This document shows positions 45,398 through 54,762 of a DNA stretch of 64,000 nt, piece after piece (positions within the stretch are counted from its first letter, which is position 1; the number at the start of each line of letters is the position of its first letter). The notes beneath the pieces are model-generated. The model was not told where the DNA came from. It saw only the letters and a program-made list of their open reading frames with translations, and searched no databases. The DNA lies in NCBI RefSeq assembly GCF_004339015.1, contig NZ_SMFQ01000002.1, positions 683,351 to 747,350 of the forward strand. The letters are read 5' to 3'. The DNA comes from Cocleimonas flava. GTDB lineage: Bacteria; Pseudomonadota; Gammaproteobacteria; Thiotrichales; Thiotrichaceae. Position numbers and translations under genes: made by a program.

Positions 45398-45521
45398 AGA
45401 GCGTTTAGGTTTTGGTTCAAATCAAGGCGCGACCGCACGGAGAATGTTTGAGCGTACAATAAGTACGTGATTCATTCGAGTACGGTCGCAACGCCGAGTT
45501 GGGCCGAAAGATGAATGCCCT
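45398..45521. repeat. 125-bp structured repeat, copy B
   Basis: Second copy of the element at 37371-37495. Inner stem CGTAC/GTACG and outer stem CGACCG/CGGTCG differ from copy A in sequence but stay complementary. It ends two bases into the gor stop region, as copy A ends at the GDSL remnant stop. Confidence 0.8.
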
Positions 45522-46932
45522 ACTTCATTGTGACTAATTCTTCTGCTGAAACTGGATGTATCGCGATCGTATCATCAAAGTCCGCCTTCGTTGCTCCCAT
45601 GCGAATCGCTACCGCAAAGCCTTGTAGCATTTCATCTGCCCCTAGGCCGATGATGTGACAACCAACGATTTTCTCGTTTTCGCCCTGCACGATTAGTTTC
45701 ATGTGTGTTTTTACTTTGTGACGTGTCATAGTGTGGTACATCGGTACGAAGTCTGTTTTGTAGACTTTAATTCCACCATTGGCAACGTCATCGCCGTAGA
45801 CTTCTAATGCTTTTTCTTCACTCATTCCAATTGTGCCAATCGGTGGATGTGTGAACATTACTGTAGCGATATCATCGTATGACATTTTACGTTCTGGCTT
45901 ACCACCGTATAGGCGATCACCTAAACGACGACCTGCTGCGATTGCAACTGGCGTTAGTGGCGCTTTACCGATGATGTCACCGATTGCGTAAATACCGTCT
46001 ACGGTGGTTTTTTCGTAGTCATCTACAACGACTGTTCCGCGTGGAGATACTTCTACATCGGTATTTTCCAAACCAATATTGTCTGTGTTTGGACGGCGTC
46101 CGATTGCCCAGATAAGTGAATCTACATCTGTAATTTTTGTGCCGTCTTCAAATTCGATTGTGACTTGCTTGAGACCGTCTGGTCCTTCGCCCTGATCAAC
46201 CACTTTGCTGATGATTTCATCGTGATAGCGTTTTAGGCCATCATCCTTCATTTGCTGTGATAGCGCCGCTTGAATAGTGCTGTCGAAACCTTCGAGTACT
46301 GGCCAGCCCTGATGTAATACAGATACGTCTGAACCGAGCCCATCCATTAGCATCGCTAGTTCTAGCGCGATATAACCGCCACCAACGACAACGACTTTTT
46401 TAGGTTGAATATCGTGTAGTTCCTGGAAGAAACCATCTGAATTTAGACCAAGTTCCGAACCTTCGATATTTGCCGGAATAATTGGACGACCACCTGAAGC
46501 GATAACGATGTTATCTGCTGTGTAGGTGATTTTTTCACCGTCGACATCAACTTCGATTGTTTTGTTGTCGAGGAATTTTGCTCCGCCCTCAATCACTTCA
46601 ACGCCAGCACCACCTAGGTAGCCATCGTACCAATCGAGGATTCCGCCGATGTAGTTTTCACGCTTATCGACTAATTTTTTCCAGTTTAATTTGCCTGCGT
46701 CACCTTCTAGGTCGACGTCAAAACCGTAATCCTGAGCATCCATTAAGCCTTGTGCGACACCTGCGGCATACCACATTACTTTTTTTGGTACACAACCAAC
46801 ATTGACACAGGTTCCGCCAAGTTCTTTATTTTCAATGACTGCAACTTTTGCGCCGTATGATGCCGCACGCTCTGCGATTGATAATCCGCCGCTGCCTGCA
46901 CCGATTGAAATTAGATCGTAATGGTTGCTCAT
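45520..46932 (-). CDS. gor: glutathione-disulfide reductase
   Basis: A 470-residue FAD- and NADPH-dependent enzyme that keeps glutathione reduced. It has the FAD motif ISIGAGSGGLSIAERAA, the redox dithiol GGTCVNVGCVPKK, an NAD(P) motif VVVGGGYIALELAM, and the dimer-interface His-Glu pair near the C-terminus (HPVSAEE). The start at 46932 is chosen since AAGGAAAG precedes it; an upstream in-frame TTG has no site. It lies beside prx-grx and oxyR on the same strand as prx-grx, giving a glutathione-based peroxide defence set. Confidence 0.94.
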   Translation of the reverse strand: MSNHYDLISIGAGSGGLSIAERAASYGAKVAVIENKELGGTCVNVGCVPKKVMWYAAGVAQGLMDAQDYGFDVDLEGDAGKLNWKKLVDKRENYIGGILDWYDGYLGGAGVEVIEGGAKFLDNKTIEVDVDGEKITYTADNIVIASGGRPIIPANIEGSELGLNSDGFFQELHDIQPKKVVVVGGGYIALELAMLMDGLGSDVSVLHQGWPVLEGFDSTIQAALSQQMKDDGLKRYHDEIISKVVDQGEGPDGLKQVTIEFEDGTKITDVDSLIWAIGRRPNTDNIGLENTDVEVSPRGTVVVDDYEKTTVDGIYAIGDIIGKAPLTPVAIAAGRRLGDRLYGGKPERKMSYDDIATVMFTHPPIGTIGMSEEKALEVYGDDVANGGIKVYKTDFVPMYHTMTRHKVKTHMKLIVQGENEKIVGCHIIGLGADEMLQGFAVAIRMGATKADFDDTIAIHPVSAEELVTMK

Positions 46933-47003
46933 AATTCTTTCCTTTATCAACTGCTTGTGAATGACTATCAGCAGTTATTTTTTGTTTGTTAATGGAGTTT
47001 TTA

Positions 47004-47031
47004 TACACCCCCCCACTTATAGGCATTTTTT
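47004..47031 (+). repeat. G6 element copy 21
   Basis: CACCCCCCCACTTATAGGC then T6 on the plus strand. Both flanking genes are on the minus strand, so orientation does not fit a terminator. Confidence 0.75.
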
Positions 47032-47129
47032 GAGTTATTTCTTTGAATCATTCTTTTGATTCAATGCACGAGGATGAAAGTCATCCAACAACTGCACAGA
47101 TAGATATAACGCATCACTGTTTAAAACAG

Positions 47130-47160
47130 ATGCTGACCATCTAGAAAGAATGGTCAGCAT
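47130..47160. other. 11-bp perfect hairpin
   Basis: ATGCTGACCAT at 47130-47140 pairs with ATGGTCAGCAT at 47150-47160 around a 9-base loop. Followed on the minus strand by CTGTTTTAA, so it may terminate prx-grx weakly. Confidence 0.65.
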
Positions 47161-47230
47161 GTTAGCAAAACCTTTGAGGCTCTGCTTCTTAACTATTTTT
47201 TCGAACTCTGATTCCGAGCTATGTAAATTC

Positions 47231-47263
47231 CCCTGCCAGTAACCTATTGATTAGCTGACAGGG
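47231..47263 (-). terminator. possible terminator of prx-grx
   Basis: CCCTG-C-CAG and CTG-A-CAGGG pair with one mismatch; the minus-strand 3' side has only a weak T-run (GGAATTT). 25 bases after the prx-grx stop. Confidence 0.4.
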
Positions 47264-47287
47264 AGAAATACATGGATCAAATAATAA

Positions 47288-48022
47288 TTAAGCTTTTAAC
47301 CAAGCTTCAAGCTCAGATGCACCACCGATGTGATCACCGTCGATGAATACTTGTGGAACGCTTGATGTACCAACCATAGCACGCAAGCTGCGGTCTGTGT
47401 AATCACGGCCCATTACAAGCTCTTCGTACTCGTAACCTGATTCTGTAAGCATTTCTTTTGCTTTTGCACAGAAAGGACAACCTTTACGAGACATTACTGT
47501 CACGCTAGATGGTACTTTTGCATCAGATGCGATGTAAGTAAGCATTGTGTCTGCGTCAGAAACGTCAAACGGATCGCCATCAACATCTGCTTCGATGAAC
47601 ATTTTCTGAACTACGCCGTCTTTAACAAGCATAGAGTAGCGCCATGAACGCTTGCCGAAACCTAGTTGCTCTTTGTCTACTAGCATACCCATGCCTTCTG
47701 AGAACTCACCGTTTCCGTCAGGGATGAATTTAATGTCTGCAGCATCCTGGTTTTCTTGCCACTCGTTCATTACGAATGTGTCGTTTACTGATACACATAA
47801 TACGTCGTCAACACCGTGCTCTTTGAATGCAGGGATCAACTGGTTGTAACGTGGAACGTGAGCTGATGAACATGTAGGTGTAAATGCACCTGGTAGTGAG
47901 AATACAACGACTGTTTTACCAGCGAATAATTCATCAGTAGTTACGTCTACCCACTCGTTGTCTTTACGTGTGTGGAATGTAACGTTTGGGACGCGTTGTC
48001 CTTCTTTGTTTTCAAATGGCAT
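47288..48022 (-). CDS. hybrid peroxiredoxin-glutaredoxin
   Basis: A 244-residue natural fusion. Residues about 1-160 are a Prx5-type peroxiredoxin with the peroxidatic Cys in [14 protein letters not shown]; residues about 170-244 are a glutaredoxin with the CPFC dithiol ([15 protein letters not shown]) and the cis-Pro segment [16 protein letters not shown]. It reduces hydrogen peroxide and small alkyl peroxides with glutathione, so the neighbouring gor closes the cycle. AAGGAAAC precedes the ATG. It is divergent from oxyR. Confidence 0.95.
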
Positions 48023-48253
48023 TTTTGTTTCCTTTTGTTAAATAAATCAATAATGGTTAAAGAATAATGTTTACTAAAATTGATCAGTTAATGATATGGG
48101 ATGAATATGACAAAACAATGATTAAAAGATCAATTTCCTAAGAACTTGACGCGCATCATATAGAGACATATTCAATCCGTAAATTATATTGTTTTAATCG
48201 TTGTATTCTATAAAATAGATCGTAGTAATAAACGTAACAACGGAGCGGCATTC

Positions 48254-49156
48254 ATGACCTTACCAACCATAAAACAACTTCGATATTTTGTTGCATTGGA
48301 AAAACACCAGCACTTTGGCAATGCGGCAAAAGCCTGTTTTGTCTCTCAATCGGCTTTTAGTGTGGCAATCAAAGAGCTGGAATCTCATCTGGGTGCGCAA
48401 CTGGTAGACCGCACCAATAAAAGCGTAACGATCACCCGCACAGGCCGAGAGATCGCGAACCATGCAAGACTGTGTTTGAGAGATCTGGAATATCTTGCAG
48501 AAGTTGCTCATAGCGATCAAAAACCACTCACAGGACGTTTAAATCTCGGCGTAATTCCCACTATTGCGCCATTTATACTGCCGGACTTGTTGCCTAACCT
48601 GAGATCATCTTTTCCTGATTTAAGGTTGTATTTACGTGAAGACACCACGCGTTCCTCGCATGACTTACTGATAGAGGGTGAGTTAGATTTAATTATGATC
48701 GCTTTACCTTATAAACTCAGCAATGTTGAAATCATGCCGCTATTTAAAGATCACTTCTCTTTGGCTTGTCATAAAAATAGTAAAATTATCGATCCCAATA
48801 ATTATTCCTTAAACAATTTACCCAAAGAGAGTGTGTTGCTATTAGAGGATGGGCATTGCCTGCGTGATCATGCGTTGTCAGCGTGTAAAATTCGAAATCA
48901 GGATACGGTTAGTCGTTTTGCTGCGAGTAGCTTATTGACTCTAGTGAGCATGGTAGATTCTGACATTGGTATCACCTATCTGACTGAAATGGCTAAAAAC
49001 TCATCACTGCTTCAAAATACTGATATTGAAACCTATCCTCTGGATGAAAAAAGCTACCGCGAGATTGGATTAGCCTGGAGAAAAGGCAGCGCAAGAGAGG
49101 AAGAGTTTAAACTTTTAGGTGAATGCATTAAAACGATGCATGCCTCACAAGACTAG
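48254..49156 (+). CDS. oxyR: OxyR hydrogen-peroxide regulator
   Basis: A 300-residue LysR-type regulator. The HTH (QLRYFVALEKHQHFGNAA) and the redox pair in LEDGHCLRDHALSACK match E. coli OxyR Cys199 and Cys208, where disulfide formation activates the protein. The GGAG site before the ATG is good. It is divergent from prx-grx and is the expected activator of prx-grx, gor and the katG gene at 5250, which carries an OxyR-type site. No convincing full OxyR site was identified in the 231-base divergent gap itself. Confidence 0.94.
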   Translation: MTLPTIKQLRYFVALEKHQHFGNAAKACFVSQSAFSVAIKELESHLGAQLVDRTNKSVTITRTGREIANHARLCLRDLEYLAEVAHSDQKPLTGRLNLGVIPTIAPFILPDLLPNLRSSFPDLRLYLREDTTRSSHDLLIEGELDLIMIALPYKLSNVEIMPLFKDHFSLACHKNSKIIDPNNYSLNNLPKESVLLLEDGHCLRDHALSACKIRNQDTVSRFAASSLLTLVSMVDSDIGITYLTEMAKNSSLLQNTDIETYPLDEKSYREIGLAWRKGSAREEEFKLLGECIKTMHASQD

Positions 49157-49338: not shown

Positions 49339-50046
49339 ATGTCTTCAGCTGAGGCTAACTCTCGCAATTCAACGATGCATCCGGCATTACCGTTGATTTT
49401 CCCCTTGCAAGATTTATCTAAATCGGATGCTCAAGCGGCAATAAAAAAAGTCGATCCTGATACTGCCTGGCATTTTTATTCTCATTCTATTCGAAGAAAT
49501 CCAAATGATTTAGCACTCCATACCCATCGTGTGTTTTTCGCTATGCAACATAAAGATGCGGAGTTATTGGCGGGATCTTTGCACGACCTCTTCTACGTTT
49601 TAAAAGACGCTGGCACCCAATTACGCATTCGCCTGTTAAAAGCATCGATGCCCTATCTCGATAAAAAAGACACCTTGTATTTTGCGATGTGGATTAAAAC
49701 CGGCATCAAAAAAGGTATGGGATACAAATGGGTTCCGGGCTCGGTACTTTCCGATGGTTTACACGGACCTGATCACACTTTGATACATATTGAGAAAGAC
49801 GATTCTGAGGATGCAAAACTTTCTCCGCTTGAAGAAGCGAGATCATGTATGGAATTTGGACAGCTAGATGTCGCCAAGAAAATTCTGCAAGAAGCATTAG
49901 CTGAAGATAGCGACAATAAGCAACTACTGGAAGAACTCGACTATTTAGAACAATACAGTAAAAGCAGAGAAATACAGCCCGAAGTTGAGCCAAAAAAACC
50001 ATTTGGCAGTGCCTTAAAAAAGTTAAAAGAACAAATATTTAGCTAG
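49339..50046 (+). CDS. hypothetical protein with FimV/TPR-like C-terminus
   Basis: A 235-residue cytoplasmic protein, first gene of the GTPase-roadblock operon. The N-terminal two thirds are helical with HSIRRNPNDLALHTHRVFFA and other TPR-like helices. The C-terminal region (PLEEARSCMEFGQLDVAKKI, LQEALAEDSDNKQLLEELDY) strongly recalls the FimV C-terminal helical domain, an adaptor at cell poles and type IV pili. It ends in a Lys-rich tail. AAGGAATC precedes the ATG. Probably an adaptor for the large protein that follows 36 bases later. Confidence 0.65.
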   Translation: MSSAEANSRNSTMHPALPLIFPLQDLSKSDAQAAIKKVDPDTAWHFYSHSIRRNPNDLALHTHRVFFAMQHKDAELLAGSLHDLFYVLKDAGTQLRIRLLKASMPYLDKKDTLYFAMWIKTGIKKGMGYKWVPGSVLSDGLHGPDHTLIHIEKDDSEDAKLSPLEEARSCMEFGQLDVAKKILQEALAEDSDNKQLLEELDYLEQYSKSREIQPEVEPKKPFGSALKKLKEQIFS

Positions 50047-50082
50047 GACGGACCCACAAGAACTAATAAGAATAAAAAGACT

Positions 50083-53040
50083 ATGTTCAATAAAAATACC
50101 GATAAAATTCGTATCGCTATCCTTGAAATTAGCGACCAGAATGATGCAATTCTGGATTATTATTTCAGTACGGCAGGCAAGTCGCTCTATACACTTGTGG
50201 ATAAAAATGAGGCCGATGCGTTTATTACTGATTATGATTATCCAGGCGCAGTAGATCACTGGGAGGAATTAAGAAAAACCAGTAAGAACCCAGTGATAGT
50301 GCTTTCTATCAGTGAAAAGAATCTCCCTAATTCCGTTTGGTTAGCAAAACCATTATCGTCAAAAGCGATTACGGATGCCGCAGTTGAAATAAGAAAATTA
50401 CTTGAGTCTGTTGAGTCTGTTGAGTCTGTTGAGTCTGTTGAGTCTGTTGAGTCTGTTGAGTCTGTTGAGTCTGTTGAGTCTGTTGAGTCTGTTGAGTCTG
50501 TTCAAGATGAAACCCTTGAAAGTCACATCGCACAAGAGCAAGTACCTGAGATACAAATACTTGAAAATACGACATCAGAGAATATCGAAGAAGAATCTGC
50601 CGAAGATTTGCTTATCCAGTCACTGAAGTTTGAAGATGAGTCAGAATCTATTCAATCAGAATCACAGCAAACATTGTATGCACAATCATCAAAACCTGCT
50701 GAGGAAAAAGCTGAAAGCAGTAAGACTAGCTCCATACCTGTCAAAGAACTTGCCATGTCTGGCAGCGCACTTAGCTTTGATTTCGATGATTTCTTCGAGA
50801 CTGAGACCGAAGAACAGCTTGAAAAAGGTGGAGAATCAGTAAAACACGATGACGTTGAAAAAATAGAATCCGATTTCGATATTTTCAACGAAGTTATCGA
50901 AGCAGGAGAAAGGCCTTTTGCTACTACTGATTCGTCTGGTGATGATATTTCTATCGAAGACAACTCTGTTGCAGATGACAGCCTTGTTGCAGAGAAAAGC
51001 CTTGTTGCAGATGACGACCTTGTTTCCCTTGAAGAGCCTGTGGCTGAAGAATCTGTAGCTGAAAACCCAGTCATTGAAGATAAACCCGAAATTCAAGATG
51101 CATCTCATGAAAATATTGAAGTCTTAGAAATGACGGATGCTGATGAGGTTGATGCACTATTAGCATCACTCATACAAGGCGAAGGCACTAAGAAACACGA
51201 AGAAGAATTCACTGATGAGCTCGATATCACAAGCTTTGAAGATACCAAAGCAAATGACATTGCTGCTAATTTAGAAGAAAGCATTGAGCTCATCAATCCG
51301 GAAACTCCCATTGATGAAGACTTAATAGAGTTAGATGATGAGAAAGAGCAGAAGAAAGCTAATCAAACCAATCTAAGCAAAGAAGAAACTCTGGAAGAGA
51401 GTTTATTAACTGTAGAAGAATCGCTGACTCTGGCTGAAATATCACTTGAAGAAGCTGAGGTAGAGGCATTAGCTGAAGATTCTTTATCTGTCGAAAACTC
51501 GTTACCTATTGAAGACTCTTTGACTGTTGAAGGCTCTTTGACTGTTGAAGGCTCTTTACTTACCGAGGACTCTTTAACAGAAGAACTTTCTCTTAGCCTA
51601 GAGAAACCTTCAGAAGAACCGGCCCCTAAAGCTGAAAAACCGGCAGTAGAAGTTAAAGATTTTCTAGCACATGATGATTCAATGGATTTTGAGGAGCCTT
51701 TTGTTATCGAGGAATCTCTGGATGCTGTTGAGCCAAAAGAATCGTTAATCATTGAAGATGTTGTGATGCAGGAAGCTCCTGTACTTGACCCTGACGAAAA
51801 CACGTTTGTCGATACACTCGAGATAGAAACAAAAGACATTTCTGCTGATATACATACCATCGAGACAGAGACTCAACCTCCCAGCGAAGAAGAAATGGAG
51901 GCGAAACTCGAAGAGGATTTATTTAATTTTGATCTTGATTCATTACAACTGGATGAATCATCTAAAAGAGTTTCAGTAGAAGAAGATGGCTCTTCAATCA
52001 ATCTTATGGATGTTCATGTCGATGAGCTGGACGAAGAAGATTTGCCAGATAACTTAGATATTAATATCGATAACACGATTAAAAAATCGACGGCTAAAGC
52101 AGAGAAAGCACTTATTGATATTCAAATGGGTGAGATTACTGATATTGGTTTGAGTACAGATGCACTTATCCCTGACACTGAAATTTCCAGTGAGGATAAA
52201 TCAAACGCTGCTGAGATCGAGCTGCAATCTTTATTAAATGAGATAAGAAAAGAAGCTGATAAATCATCAGCACCAGCATCTTCGTCGACCCAAGAAACCA
52301 AAATTGAATACGATAAAACAGTCGCCGAGAAGCGCTGGGCACTGCTATGTGGCGATAAAGATAACAAGGACTCAAAAGACAACTACTACAGACTGAATCA
52401 ACACATGTTGGCAGTATTACTCGATCAAATTGAAGTTGCGAAGGAAGACAGCAAAAAAGTACTAAGACTTAAGCATAATGACATTATCATTGTGATAAAT
52501 GCTGGTAGTGAATCAATTTACTGTAATTACTCTGTTGATACAGAAGAGTTTGTTAATTTTTGTTTCAATACGGTTAATCCGGATAACTTTAAAATTCATG
52601 ATCTGGATTACAGCGAAGTTAAACTCTACCAGACTAAATCTGTAGAAAACCCGGAAAATGCACACTCGTTTGAATCGTTTATCTGGACGGTTAGTTTACT
52701 TACTTCTCGCGGTAGGCTTTTAGAACACACGGATCTTAATAAAAAAATAGGTTTAAAAACCTGGCCAAATATCACGCGTATAGAATCCTTCCCGCACCTT
52801 ATGAACATCGCTGCAGTATTCAGCAAACACCCTGGAAGCCTTAAAGATGTTCCGCAATGGTTAAACATTCCAGAATGCTATGTCTATGCTTTTTACAATG
52901 CTGCCATGGCATTGAATATGATCGAGTTTAATAGCAATAACCTTAAGCCTTCAAAATTTGCTTTCAAATTAAATGCTTCAACAGAGAAGAAAAAAGAACG
53001 CGGTTTCTTTGGAAGATTAATTCAGAAATTGAAGTCCTAA
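50083..53040 (+). CDS. large acidic scaffold with receiver domain and C-terminal conserved domain
   Basis: A 985-residue protein in three parts. Residues about 8-108 form a receiver-like domain with Glu15, phospho-acceptor Asp50 (FITDYDYPG), Ser75 and Lys89 (AKPLSSK) in the right places. Residues about 109-740 are very acidic, disordered and repetitive: an 11 x ESV tract at about 107-140 and many degenerate ED-SL-V/T-VE repeats. Residues about 745-985 are a folded domain (EKRWALLCGDKDN, then SLLTSRGRLLEHTDLNKKIG) of unrecognised family. It is the core of the operon with a Ras-like GTPase and roadblock proteins. No membrane segment is visible. Confidence 0.75.
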   Translation: MFNKNTDKIRIAILEISDQNDAILDYYFSTAGKSLYTLVDKNEADAFITDYDYPGAVDHWEELRKTSKNPVIVLSISEKNLPNSVWLAKPLSSKAITDAAVEIRKLLESVESVESVESVESVESVESVESVESVESVESVQDETLESHIAQEQVPEIQILENTTSENIEEESAEDLLIQSLKFEDESESIQSESQQTLYAQSSKPAEEKAESSKTSSIPVKELAMSGSALSFDFDDFFETETEEQLEKGGESVKHDDVEKIESDFDIFNEVIEAGERPFATTDSSGDDISIEDNSVADDSLVAEKSLVADDDLVSLEEPVAEESVAENPVIEDKPEIQDASHENIEVLEMTDADEVDALLASLIQGEGTKKHEEEFTDELDITSFEDTKANDIAANLEESIELINPETPIDEDLIELDDEKEQKKANQTNLSKEETLEESLLTVEESLTLAEISLEEAEVEALAEDSLSVENSLPIEDSLTVEGSLTVEGSLLTEDSLTEELSLSLEKPSEEPAPKAEKPAVEVKDFLAHDDSMDFEEPFVIEESLDAVEPKESLIIEDVVMQEAPVLDPDENTFVDTLEIETKDISADIHTIETETQPPSEEEMEAKLEEDLFNFDLDSLQLDESSKRVSVEEDGSSINLMDVHVDELDEEDLPDNLDINIDNTIKKSTAKAEKALIDIQMGEITDIGLSTDALIPDTEISSEDKSNAAEIELQSLLNEIRKEADKSSAPASSSTQETKIEYDKTVAEKRWALLCGDKDNKDSKDNYYRLNQHMLAVLLDQIEVAKEDSKKVLRLKHNDIIIVINAGSESIYCNYSVDTEEFVNFCFNTVNPDNFKIHDLDYSEVKLYQTKSVENPENAHSFESFIWTVSLLTSRGRLLEHTDLNKKIGLKTWPNITRIESFPHLMNIAAVFSKHPGSLKDVPQWLNIPECYVYAFYNAAMALNMIEFNSNNLKPSKFAFKLNASTEKKKERGFFGRLIQKLKS
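50404..50502 (+). repeat. in-frame minisatellite, 11 x 9 bp
   Basis: GAGTCTGTT repeated eleven times with no base change, encoding ESV x 11. Perfect identity implies recent expansion by slippage; unit length 9 keeps the frame at any copy number. Confidence 0.97.
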
Positions 53041-53056
53041 TCAGGAAAACACTGAC

Positions 53057-53608
53057 ATGTCTAAAACAGAGATGATTAACAAAAAGATAATTTTTACCGG
53101 GCCTGTCGGTGCAGGTAAAACCACGGCTATTCAAACGATGAGCGATATACCTATCATCTGTACCAATGAAGAAGCAAGTGATATGACTAAGGATCGCAAA
53201 CCGCAAACGACGGTAGCGATGGATTATGGTCGCATCAATATTGGTAACAAAGAGAAGATTCATCTCTATGGTACGCCAGGACAGGAACGCTTTAGCTTCA
53301 TGTGGGATATTCTGACTAAAGGAGCGCTCGGTTTAATTTTATTATTAGATAACTCCAGGGATAACCCGCAGCAAGATCTACGATTTTACCTTCAATCTTT
53401 CAGTAAATTTATTCAGGAAGGTGACTTAATTATCGGTGTTACCCGTATGGATGAACAGCAAACACCCAATATCAATGACTATAGAAAATGGCTGAAAGAG
53501 TTTTCTGTAGCAGCACCTGTTTTTACTGTTGATGCGCGAGAACGTCAGGATGTTTCATCATTAGTACAGGCTTTACTTTATTCACTTGACCCAGGGATAG
53601 CGGCTTAA
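53057..53608 (+). CDS. Ras-like small GTPase (COG2229 type)
   Basis: A 183-residue GTPase. G1 is GPVGAGKTT at 15-23, G2 includes TTVAMDYG near 51-58, G3 is YGTPGQERF at 71-79 and G4 is TRMDE at 129-133, so the usual DxxG Asp is replaced by Gly-Thr-Pro-Gly and NKxD by TRMD. Bacterial relatives include MglA and the CvnD GTPases of actinobacterial conservons, which are controlled by roadblock proteins. Both a roadblock-like protein and a roadblock protein follow. It lies 16 bases after the large scaffold gene and its stop overlaps the next start. Confidence 0.9.
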   Translation: MSKTEMINKKIIFTGPVGAGKTTAIQTMSDIPIICTNEEASDMTKDRKPQTTVAMDYGRINIGNKEKIHLYGTPGQERFSFMWDILTKGALGLILLLDNSRDNPQQDLRFYLQSFSKFIQEGDLIIGVTRMDEQQTPNINDYRKWLKEFSVAAPVFTVDARERQDVSSLVQALLYSLDPGIAA

Positions 53609-54246
53609 TGAGTAGTTTTTCACTTAATAGTAATTTATACATCAACATAACACCGCGTGGTGCTTATTACGCAGTTCAAGATAATGCTGAAGATGTCACA
53701 CGTCATATTTTAATCAAACTGCTTAAAATGGACGATAGCCCAGAACTTACTGATAGGTTAGTGATTGAACTCTGCGAGATGGAACTTGAGGATGCTTCAA
53801 ATCTGATTCATAGAATGCAGACCTTAGGATTAATTTCTGGCCAACAAGAAATTGAAACAGCACCAGAGCAAAACCTTGAAGATATTCTGGAAGAATTACT
53901 GGGCTCATTATCGGACTCCAAAAAAGTATTGCTCGCAGAAAATAGCGGACTTTACCTTGGGGCATCAGGATTTCCACACGAAGCTGCAGAAGAATTAGCC
54001 GCTATCAGTGCCAATCTTTCTGAAGTTTACCAAAGACATAAACGATTACTACACGGCAATTTACGCTTCAATCAACGCGCCTGGGGATTAATAGACGCGG
54101 CAGGTAATAGTGAGGTAGGTTTTTGGCCTTTGTACATTGGTTTAAATCAGTTTGCTTTGGTGATTCATGGAATGCCGCAACTCAATAGACCTGCTTTTAA
54201 ACAACTGATGTGGTCACTGATGAGACGGTATGGGGCGACTTCTTAG
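53608..54246 (+). CDS. winged-helix plus roadblock-like protein
   Basis: A 212-residue protein. The first ~80 residues look like a small helical/winged-helix domain (VTRHILIKLLKMDD, ELCEMELEDASNLIHRMQTL). Residues about 95-212 have a roadblock/LC7-like pattern: KKVLLAENSGLYLGASGFPHE, EELAAISANLSEVYQRH, then FALVIHGMPQL. Roadblock proteins activate or inhibit small GTPases, so this could be the GTPase partner. Its start overlaps the GTPase stop (TAATG). Confidence 0.65.
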   Translation: MSSFSLNSNLYINITPRGAYYAVQDNAEDVTRHILIKLLKMDDSPELTDRLVIELCEMELEDASNLIHRMQTLGLISGQQEIETAPEQNLEDILEELLGSLSDSKKVLLAENSGLYLGASGFPHEAAEELAAISANLSEVYQRHKRLLHGNLRFNQRAWGLIDAAGNSEVGFWPLYIGLNQFALVIHGMPQLNRPAFKQLMWSLMRRYGATS

Positions 54247-54396
54247 CACCACAAAAAACAGAAAAAGAGAGGCAGTCCATGCATAGCAGTCTATCGGACT
54301 AAGCAGATTTTTTTCATTAACTAATTTATAGTGTGTATTCAAAAAGAACGATGACACACATAATAACAAATAAAATTTTTACGAGGGATACACAAC

Positions 54397-54762
54397 ATGC
54401 GTTCTGAAATGCTTAGCTCAATTTTGAGCGACCTAAACGGTTCAAGTGCTGATATTGAAGCATCTGCAGTTTTATCGACAGATGGGTTAATGATGGATTC
54501 TCTGCTTCCCGCAGGAATGGATGAAGATCGTGTTGGCGCGATGAGTGCTGCAATGCTTTCACTCGGTGATAGAACCGCTGAAGAATTGGCTCGTGGCAAG
54601 TTAGAGCAAGTGCTGATTAAAGGCGATCACGGTTATATTTTAATGACTTACGCAGGGCCTGAGGCAGTGGTTACTGTTTTAACCAAACCAGAAGCACGTC
54701 TGGGTTTGATCTTCCTTGATGTGAAACGCGCAGCAGATGCTATCCAAAAAATAGTTATGTAA
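54397..54762 (+). CDS. roadblock/LC7 domain protein (MglB-like)
   Basis: A 121-residue single-domain roadblock protein. ASAVLSTDGLMMDSLLP, then GAMSAAMLSLGDRTAEELARG, then GYILMTYAGPEAVVTVLT follow the MglB/Roadblock pattern. MglB-type proteins are GTPase activators for MglA in Myxococcus polarity control. It has its own ribosome site (GAGGGA) and lies 150 bases after the previous gene, so it may have an additional promoter. It closes the locus and is followed by a strong hairpin. Confidence 0.9.
   Translation: MRSEMLSSILSDLNGSSADIEASAVLSTDGLMMDSLLPAGMDEDRVGAMSAAMLSLGDRTAEELARGKLEQVLIKGDHGYILMTYAGPEAVVTVLTKPEARLGLIFLDVKRAADAIQKIVM

Follow-up and report, generated by a model that had tools for sequence, protein, structure and literature searches.

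A group of MglA GTPases termed Group 3 was defined in beta- and gammaproteobacteria by Wuichet and Søgaard-Andersen in 2014 (PMC4316618). According to the accessible part of that study, Group 3 loci encode MglA, one or two MglB proteins and a protein whose N-terminus is receiver-like and whose C-terminus is winged helix-turn-helix (wHTH)-like, with a variable linker in between. The GTPase has GTPGQ as its G3 motif, lacks the arginine in G2, often lacks the lysine in G4 and carries DAR as G5. The same text reports Group 3 MglA in Neisseria and Xanthomonas, and a transcriptional output was proposed there. In Snodgrassella, whose mglA belongs to Group 3, mutation of an orphan mglB altered colony spreading, which was attributed to type IV pili (2024, PMC11112851). 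A literature search yielded no functional study of a Group 3 MglA outside Snodgrassella, and none demonstrating a function for the five-gene operon described below. Two related systems are the MglA-MglB-RomR/RomX system of Myxococcus xanthus, which belongs to Group 1, and the conservons of Streptomyces (CvnA-D), which contain Group 2 MglA. RomR consists of a receiver, an unstructured linker and a conserved Glu-rich C-terminus, and the TPR protein SgmX serves MglA-GTP as an effector for type IV pili.

The window, i.e. the whole analysed stretch of 64,000 nucleotides from Cocleimonas flava (genome size 4.49 Mb), contains five open reading frames on the plus strand within positions 49339-54762, as found in its ORF listing. 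They are flanked by an oxyR-like gene and hrpA. An earlier note on this DNA had described five same-strand genes with gaps of 36 and 16 bases, one overlap and a further gap of 150, and the coordinates, sizes and spacing (36, 16, -1 and 150 bases along A-B-C-D-E) match that description. The features of the locus are as follows:

49339-50046, plus strand: gene A, 235 aa, TPR-like repeat at the C-terminus; first gene of the locus and conserved as such
50083-53040, plus strand: gene B, 985-aa scaffold with a receiver-like domain, an acidic disordered linker and an ordered C-terminal region
50402-50502, plus strand: perfect 9-bp tandem repeat in gene B, 11.2 copies of TTGAGTCTG
53057-53608, plus strand: gene C, Group 3 MglA-type small GTPase by its motifs, 183 aa
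53608-54246, plus strand: gene D, winged helix and roadblock protein by AlphaFold, Foldseek, Pfam and alignment, 212 aa
54397-54762, plus strand: gene E, canonical MglB/roadblock protein, 121 aa, with an invariant Asp29-Gly30

Gene C encodes a Ras-like GTPase, as had been claimed, whose best relatives in the PDB are MglA and Rab proteins. It contains the motifs GPVGAGKT (residues 15-22), TT (51-52), GTPGQ (72-76), TRMD (129-132) and DAR (159-161); G72-Q76 and T51-T52 are invariant across 16 orthologues, and D159 and R161 of the DAR motif are likewise invariant across orthologues. The features given for Group 3 recur here one after the other: G3 reads GTPGQ, a threonine replaces the arginine beside the G2 threonine, G4 deviates from [NT]KxD and G5 is DAR. 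The adjoining protein B is composed of receiver-like, linker and wHTH-like parts, the winged helix being the part with the weakest evidence (secondary structure and weak HTH matches). E is a coupled MglB with the conserved Asp-Gly pair, and D is a roadblock protein in which, according to the alignment, the Asp of this pair is missing. Since the motifs of C and the gene neighbourhood match the 2014 description (PMC4316618), the locus is, judged by sequence, a Group 3 MglA system. Its core had thus been described before, and the suggestion that the genes form an undescribed system is not upheld. Three features differ from the Group 3 systems as presented in the accessible text of that paper: gene A, with its TPR, regularly joins the locus as a fifth component, a winged helix is part of the second roadblock protein, and the scaffold reaches about double the length in the genus of the window.

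The M. xanthus system shares with the locus a Ras-like GTPase, a roadblock partner and a protein made of receiver, linker and C-terminus; however, Group 1 MglA has TVPGQ as its G3 motif and an intrinsic Arg finger, whereas C has GTPGQ and lacks that arginine. The conservons likewise couple a GTPase of the DAR and GTPGQ class to an MglB homologue, but neither a CvnA histidine kinase nor CvnC is encoded at the window locus, and the G4 motif is TRMD instead of NxFD. Thiotrichaceae relatives (L057-L064) also encode, away from the five-gene operon, another GTPase with about 50% identity to C; it lies mostly within longer ORFs of about 300-390 aa and might be fused or represent a separate subfamily. 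Outside this family, the GTPase also occurs in longer frames (L049:1596-3089, 497 aa; L050:9573-10469, 298 aa), which may reflect an extended N-terminus.

Full-length B was modelled with AlphaFold using 55 orthologues. Residues 6-119 adopt a receiver-like fold with a pLDDT of about 96, so that the fold expected by the earlier note is present in the model, and nearly all of the 50 Foldseek matches listed are response-regulator receivers. Pfam is mostly silent on these heads (Response_reg in 2 of 62), and the receiver identity therefore rests on matches of the B head to receivers in a PDB profile search together with AlphaFold and Foldseek. In the model, Asp50, Ser75 and Lys89 sit at the ends of β3, β4 and β5. 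The combination of Asp50, Asp52, Lys89 and Pro90 is found in 87 of 92 B heads, and 80 of 92 have Ser75 in addition. To call the receiver intact, as had been done, is nevertheless too strong. No conserved acidic pair was found after β1 (22 of 92 heads have an adjacent acidic pair), and helix α4 is absent from the predicted head, in which β4 leads straight into β5. The head thus departs from the canonical phospho-receiver, which combines the acidic pair after β1 with Asp, Thr/Ser and Lys. Because both α4 and a conserved acidic pair are lacking, phosphorylation of the B head is doubtful, and we infer that it is an atypical receiver, perhaps acting independently of phosphorylation.

The linker of B (about residues 120-744), in which disorder is predicted from about residue 124 to 740, is strongly acidic, with 30% Asp and Glu and a net charge of -151. 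The 9-bp repeat lies in frame and encodes a run of Val-Glu-Ser with which the linker begins; its copy number likely differs between strains. A long VES run is also present in the relative L031. A giant disordered scaffold had been postulated, and disorder is indeed predicted; however, the giant size is special to the genus of the window, in which B comprises 685-985 aa (one of these lengths, from L031, is truncated where the contig stops) compared with a median of 415 aa in 71 other loci and mostly about 380-480 aa outside the genus. The much longer linker in this genus appears to be new. It contains a short amphipathic motif, e.g. DEVDALLASL or ELQSLLNEIR, which is found in nine loci of the same genus and in none of the 67 others tested, i.e. 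in 9 of 76 loci in all versus 1.5 expected by shuffling. The C-terminal region (about 745-950) is a confidently folded, mixed α/β part of about 200 aa, for which Pfam and PDB profile searches returned no usable match and hhalign gave no link to D. Its winged-helix-like part is suggested by HTH-like predicted secondary structure and by weak HTH_20 and MarR matches (6 and 3 of 62, respectively). RomR ends in a short, conserved Glu-rich helical region, which B does not have when the two are compared by inspection, and the likeness of B and RomR is, as far as shown, limited to the receiver fold. The genome of the window also encodes a second B-like protein of 736 aa (L154:8696-10906, minus strand, corresponding to about 231200-233400 of contig G000:C1), which combines an AERLE-type long charged repeat linker, the C-terminal domain of B and the motif DELDMILASL. 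It has no evident receiver head, and no GTPase of this group adjoins it.

Gene A had been regarded as FimV/TPR-like. A weak C-terminal TPR match is present (TPR_14, E 0.003; TIGR03504, E 0.002; neither reaches the curated cut-off), and any likeness to FimV beyond the TPR is doubtful. A FimV/HubP protein proper would combine a LysM/FimV core with a membrane segment and the C-terminal TPR of FimV; of these, A matches the TPR part alone. The assignments of D as a winged-helix/roadblock protein and of E as an MglB-like protein held up. D is predicted (mean pLDDT 91) to consist of an N-terminal helical/winged-helix part followed by the roadblock order α-β-β-α-β-β-β-α, and Foldseek retrieved Ragulator, MglB and other roadblock structures. 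As hhalign with shallow profiles gave no link between D and E, the roadblock assignment of D rests on structure and on weak Pfam matches (Robl_LC7 in 25 of 54 D orthologues). E is an MglB-type roadblock protein (Robl_LC7, E 3.9e-14) and matches CvnB5 (PDB 3leq, E 6e-11).

The order A-B-C-D-E on one strand is found in 86 of 92 beta- and gammaproteobacterial loci in which all five genes were found; some genomes were reached by two routes, and the number of independent genomes is smaller. This conservation is far beyond chance and bears out the synteny that the earlier note had asked for. Of the six exceptions, three, all in Sphaerotilus, seem to stem from faulty ORF calling, and the other three loci are rearranged or partial. 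Among the hosts are Thiothrix, Leucothrix, Thiolinea, Halothiobacillus, Methylomonas, Methylobacter, Methylovulum, Thiodiazotropha, Chromatiales, Sphaerotilus and Methyloversatilis. Among 232 evenly sampled gammaproteobacterial genomes, the GTPase was detected in 42, by a search that also picks up some GTPases outside five-gene operons, and the B signature in 39, largely in the same genomes. The proposed co-occurrence with type IV pili was found, since 38 of 39 B-positive genomes have PilQ above cut-off compared with 161 of 193 others (Fisher P 0.02, kinship ignored), but it is almost uninformative: PilQ is present in 199 of 232 genomes, and a trait nearly universal in the class provides weak evidence.

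In relatives, the operon is extended by further genes. A PAS protein accompanies it in 60 of 80 named loci, usually followed by a 248-aa protein of the phosphonate-binding (PhnD-like) family (e.g. L044:11539-12282 and L142:10099-10842), which has no evident signal peptide in the sequences read and looks cytosolic; both genes are located behind the roadblock gene. The PAS protein matches PAS_3 and NifL-type PAS domains and presumably resembles the PAS domain of Aer. A bactofilin gene lies just upstream of the operon in Thiotrichaceae outside the genus of the window (Thiothrix, Leucothrix, Thiolinea), in Sphaerotilus and in one Burkholderiaceae MAG, and most of these loci also carry a FimV/HubP-like protein downstream, separate from gene A; neighbours that are linked within a single family do not count as independent cases. 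No kinase gene is among the recurring neighbours. The extension by PAS, PhnD-like, bactofilin and FimV/HubP-like genes appears to be new. The genome of the window has weak PAS matches (26% identity) and keeps one bactofilin, three FimV-core ORFs and PilQ, all away from the locus; a search for the PhnD-like protein, run without a positive control, gave no match there.

Taken as a whole, the locus is probably best explained as a Group 3 MglA switch hub whose output acts on polar machinery or type IV pili. By analogy with RomR, SgmX and MglA/MglB of Myxococcus, we infer its interactions, nucleotide cycle and output as follows. C would be the nucleotide-switch GTPase. Of its two roadblock partners, E would likely be GAP-like and D probably non-catalytic, a relation similar to that of MglC to MglB. 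B would serve as a cytosolic hub, whose receiver-like head takes input, most likely through protein binding rather than phosphorylation, whose long acidic linker spaces the modules, and whose conserved C-terminal domain provides the docking site for the GTPase and roadblock proteins. A would be a TPR adaptor or effector. As the most likely output, machinery at the cell pole, for instance type IV pili, would be positioned or activated, although no pilus, bactofilin or FimV genes adjoin the window locus itself, which argues against it. Such a polarity or pilus switch would work like MglA-MglB-RomR. It is tempting to speculate further on a beta/gammaproteobacterial polarity system, a tentative picture that we hold to be possible, in which a PAS sensor, possibly of redox, and the cytosolic PhnD-like ligand-binding protein signal to the hub of MglA, MglB and pseudo-receiver, and the hub directs type IV pili to their place through bactofilin and a polar landmark of the FimV/HubP type. 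Within the genus of the window, the hub would be stretched by the long acidic linker with the repeated motif D-x-[LIV]-D-x-LL-x-x-L, and the PhnD-like partner would have been lost from the window's genome.

A role in transcription, as proposed for Group 3 in the accessible text of PMC4316618, would mean that B, D or both contact DNA through their winged helices, which are switched by the state of the GTPase and roadblock proteins. The winged helix of D and the HTH-like features of the B C-terminus speak for such a regulator, which we nevertheless consider unlikely; the HTH matches in B are weak and few, and the bactofilin and FimV/HubP-like neighbours in relatives suggest a spatial role, so that a polar or pilus output is favoured over a transcriptional one. 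Moreover, winged helices often bind proteins. The same neighbours fit one half of the earlier proposal that a phosphorelay is linked to polar or pilus positioning; the phosphorelay half is doubtful. A true phosphorelay resembling that of RomR, with a histidine kinase phosphorylating Asp50 of B and thereby altering GTPase loading, would agree with the receiver fold and the strong conservation of Asp50, Ser75 and Lys89-Pro90, but it seems quite improbable given that the Mg2+-binding acidic pair is not conserved, that the α4 helix is absent and that no kinase gene is among the recurring neighbours, where the recurring sensors are PAS and PhnD-like proteins. It is highly improbable that the five components constitute a categorically new signalling system: gene A and the PAS, PhnD-like, bactofilin and FimV extensions are not mentioned in the accessible 2014 text, yet that text already describes the core architecture and the GTPase class, which were cited again in 2024, and novelty of the core is thereby refuted.

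Group 3 loci are widespread, occurring in Neisseria and Xanthomonas according to the accessible part of PMC4316618 and in methanotrophs among the loci found here. The recurring bactofilin, FimV/HubP, PAS and PhnD-like neighbours provide specific, testable predictions on GTPase control and sensing, and they hint that ordinary proteobacteria with pili may possess an equivalent of the polarity switch seen in Myxococcus. Upstream of the operon, the window contains an oxidative-stress-like cluster (45520-49156) with a glutathione reductase-like protein, a peroxiredoxin-glutaredoxin hybrid and an OxyR-like LysR regulator, the latter two of which are kept beside the operon within the genus of the window.
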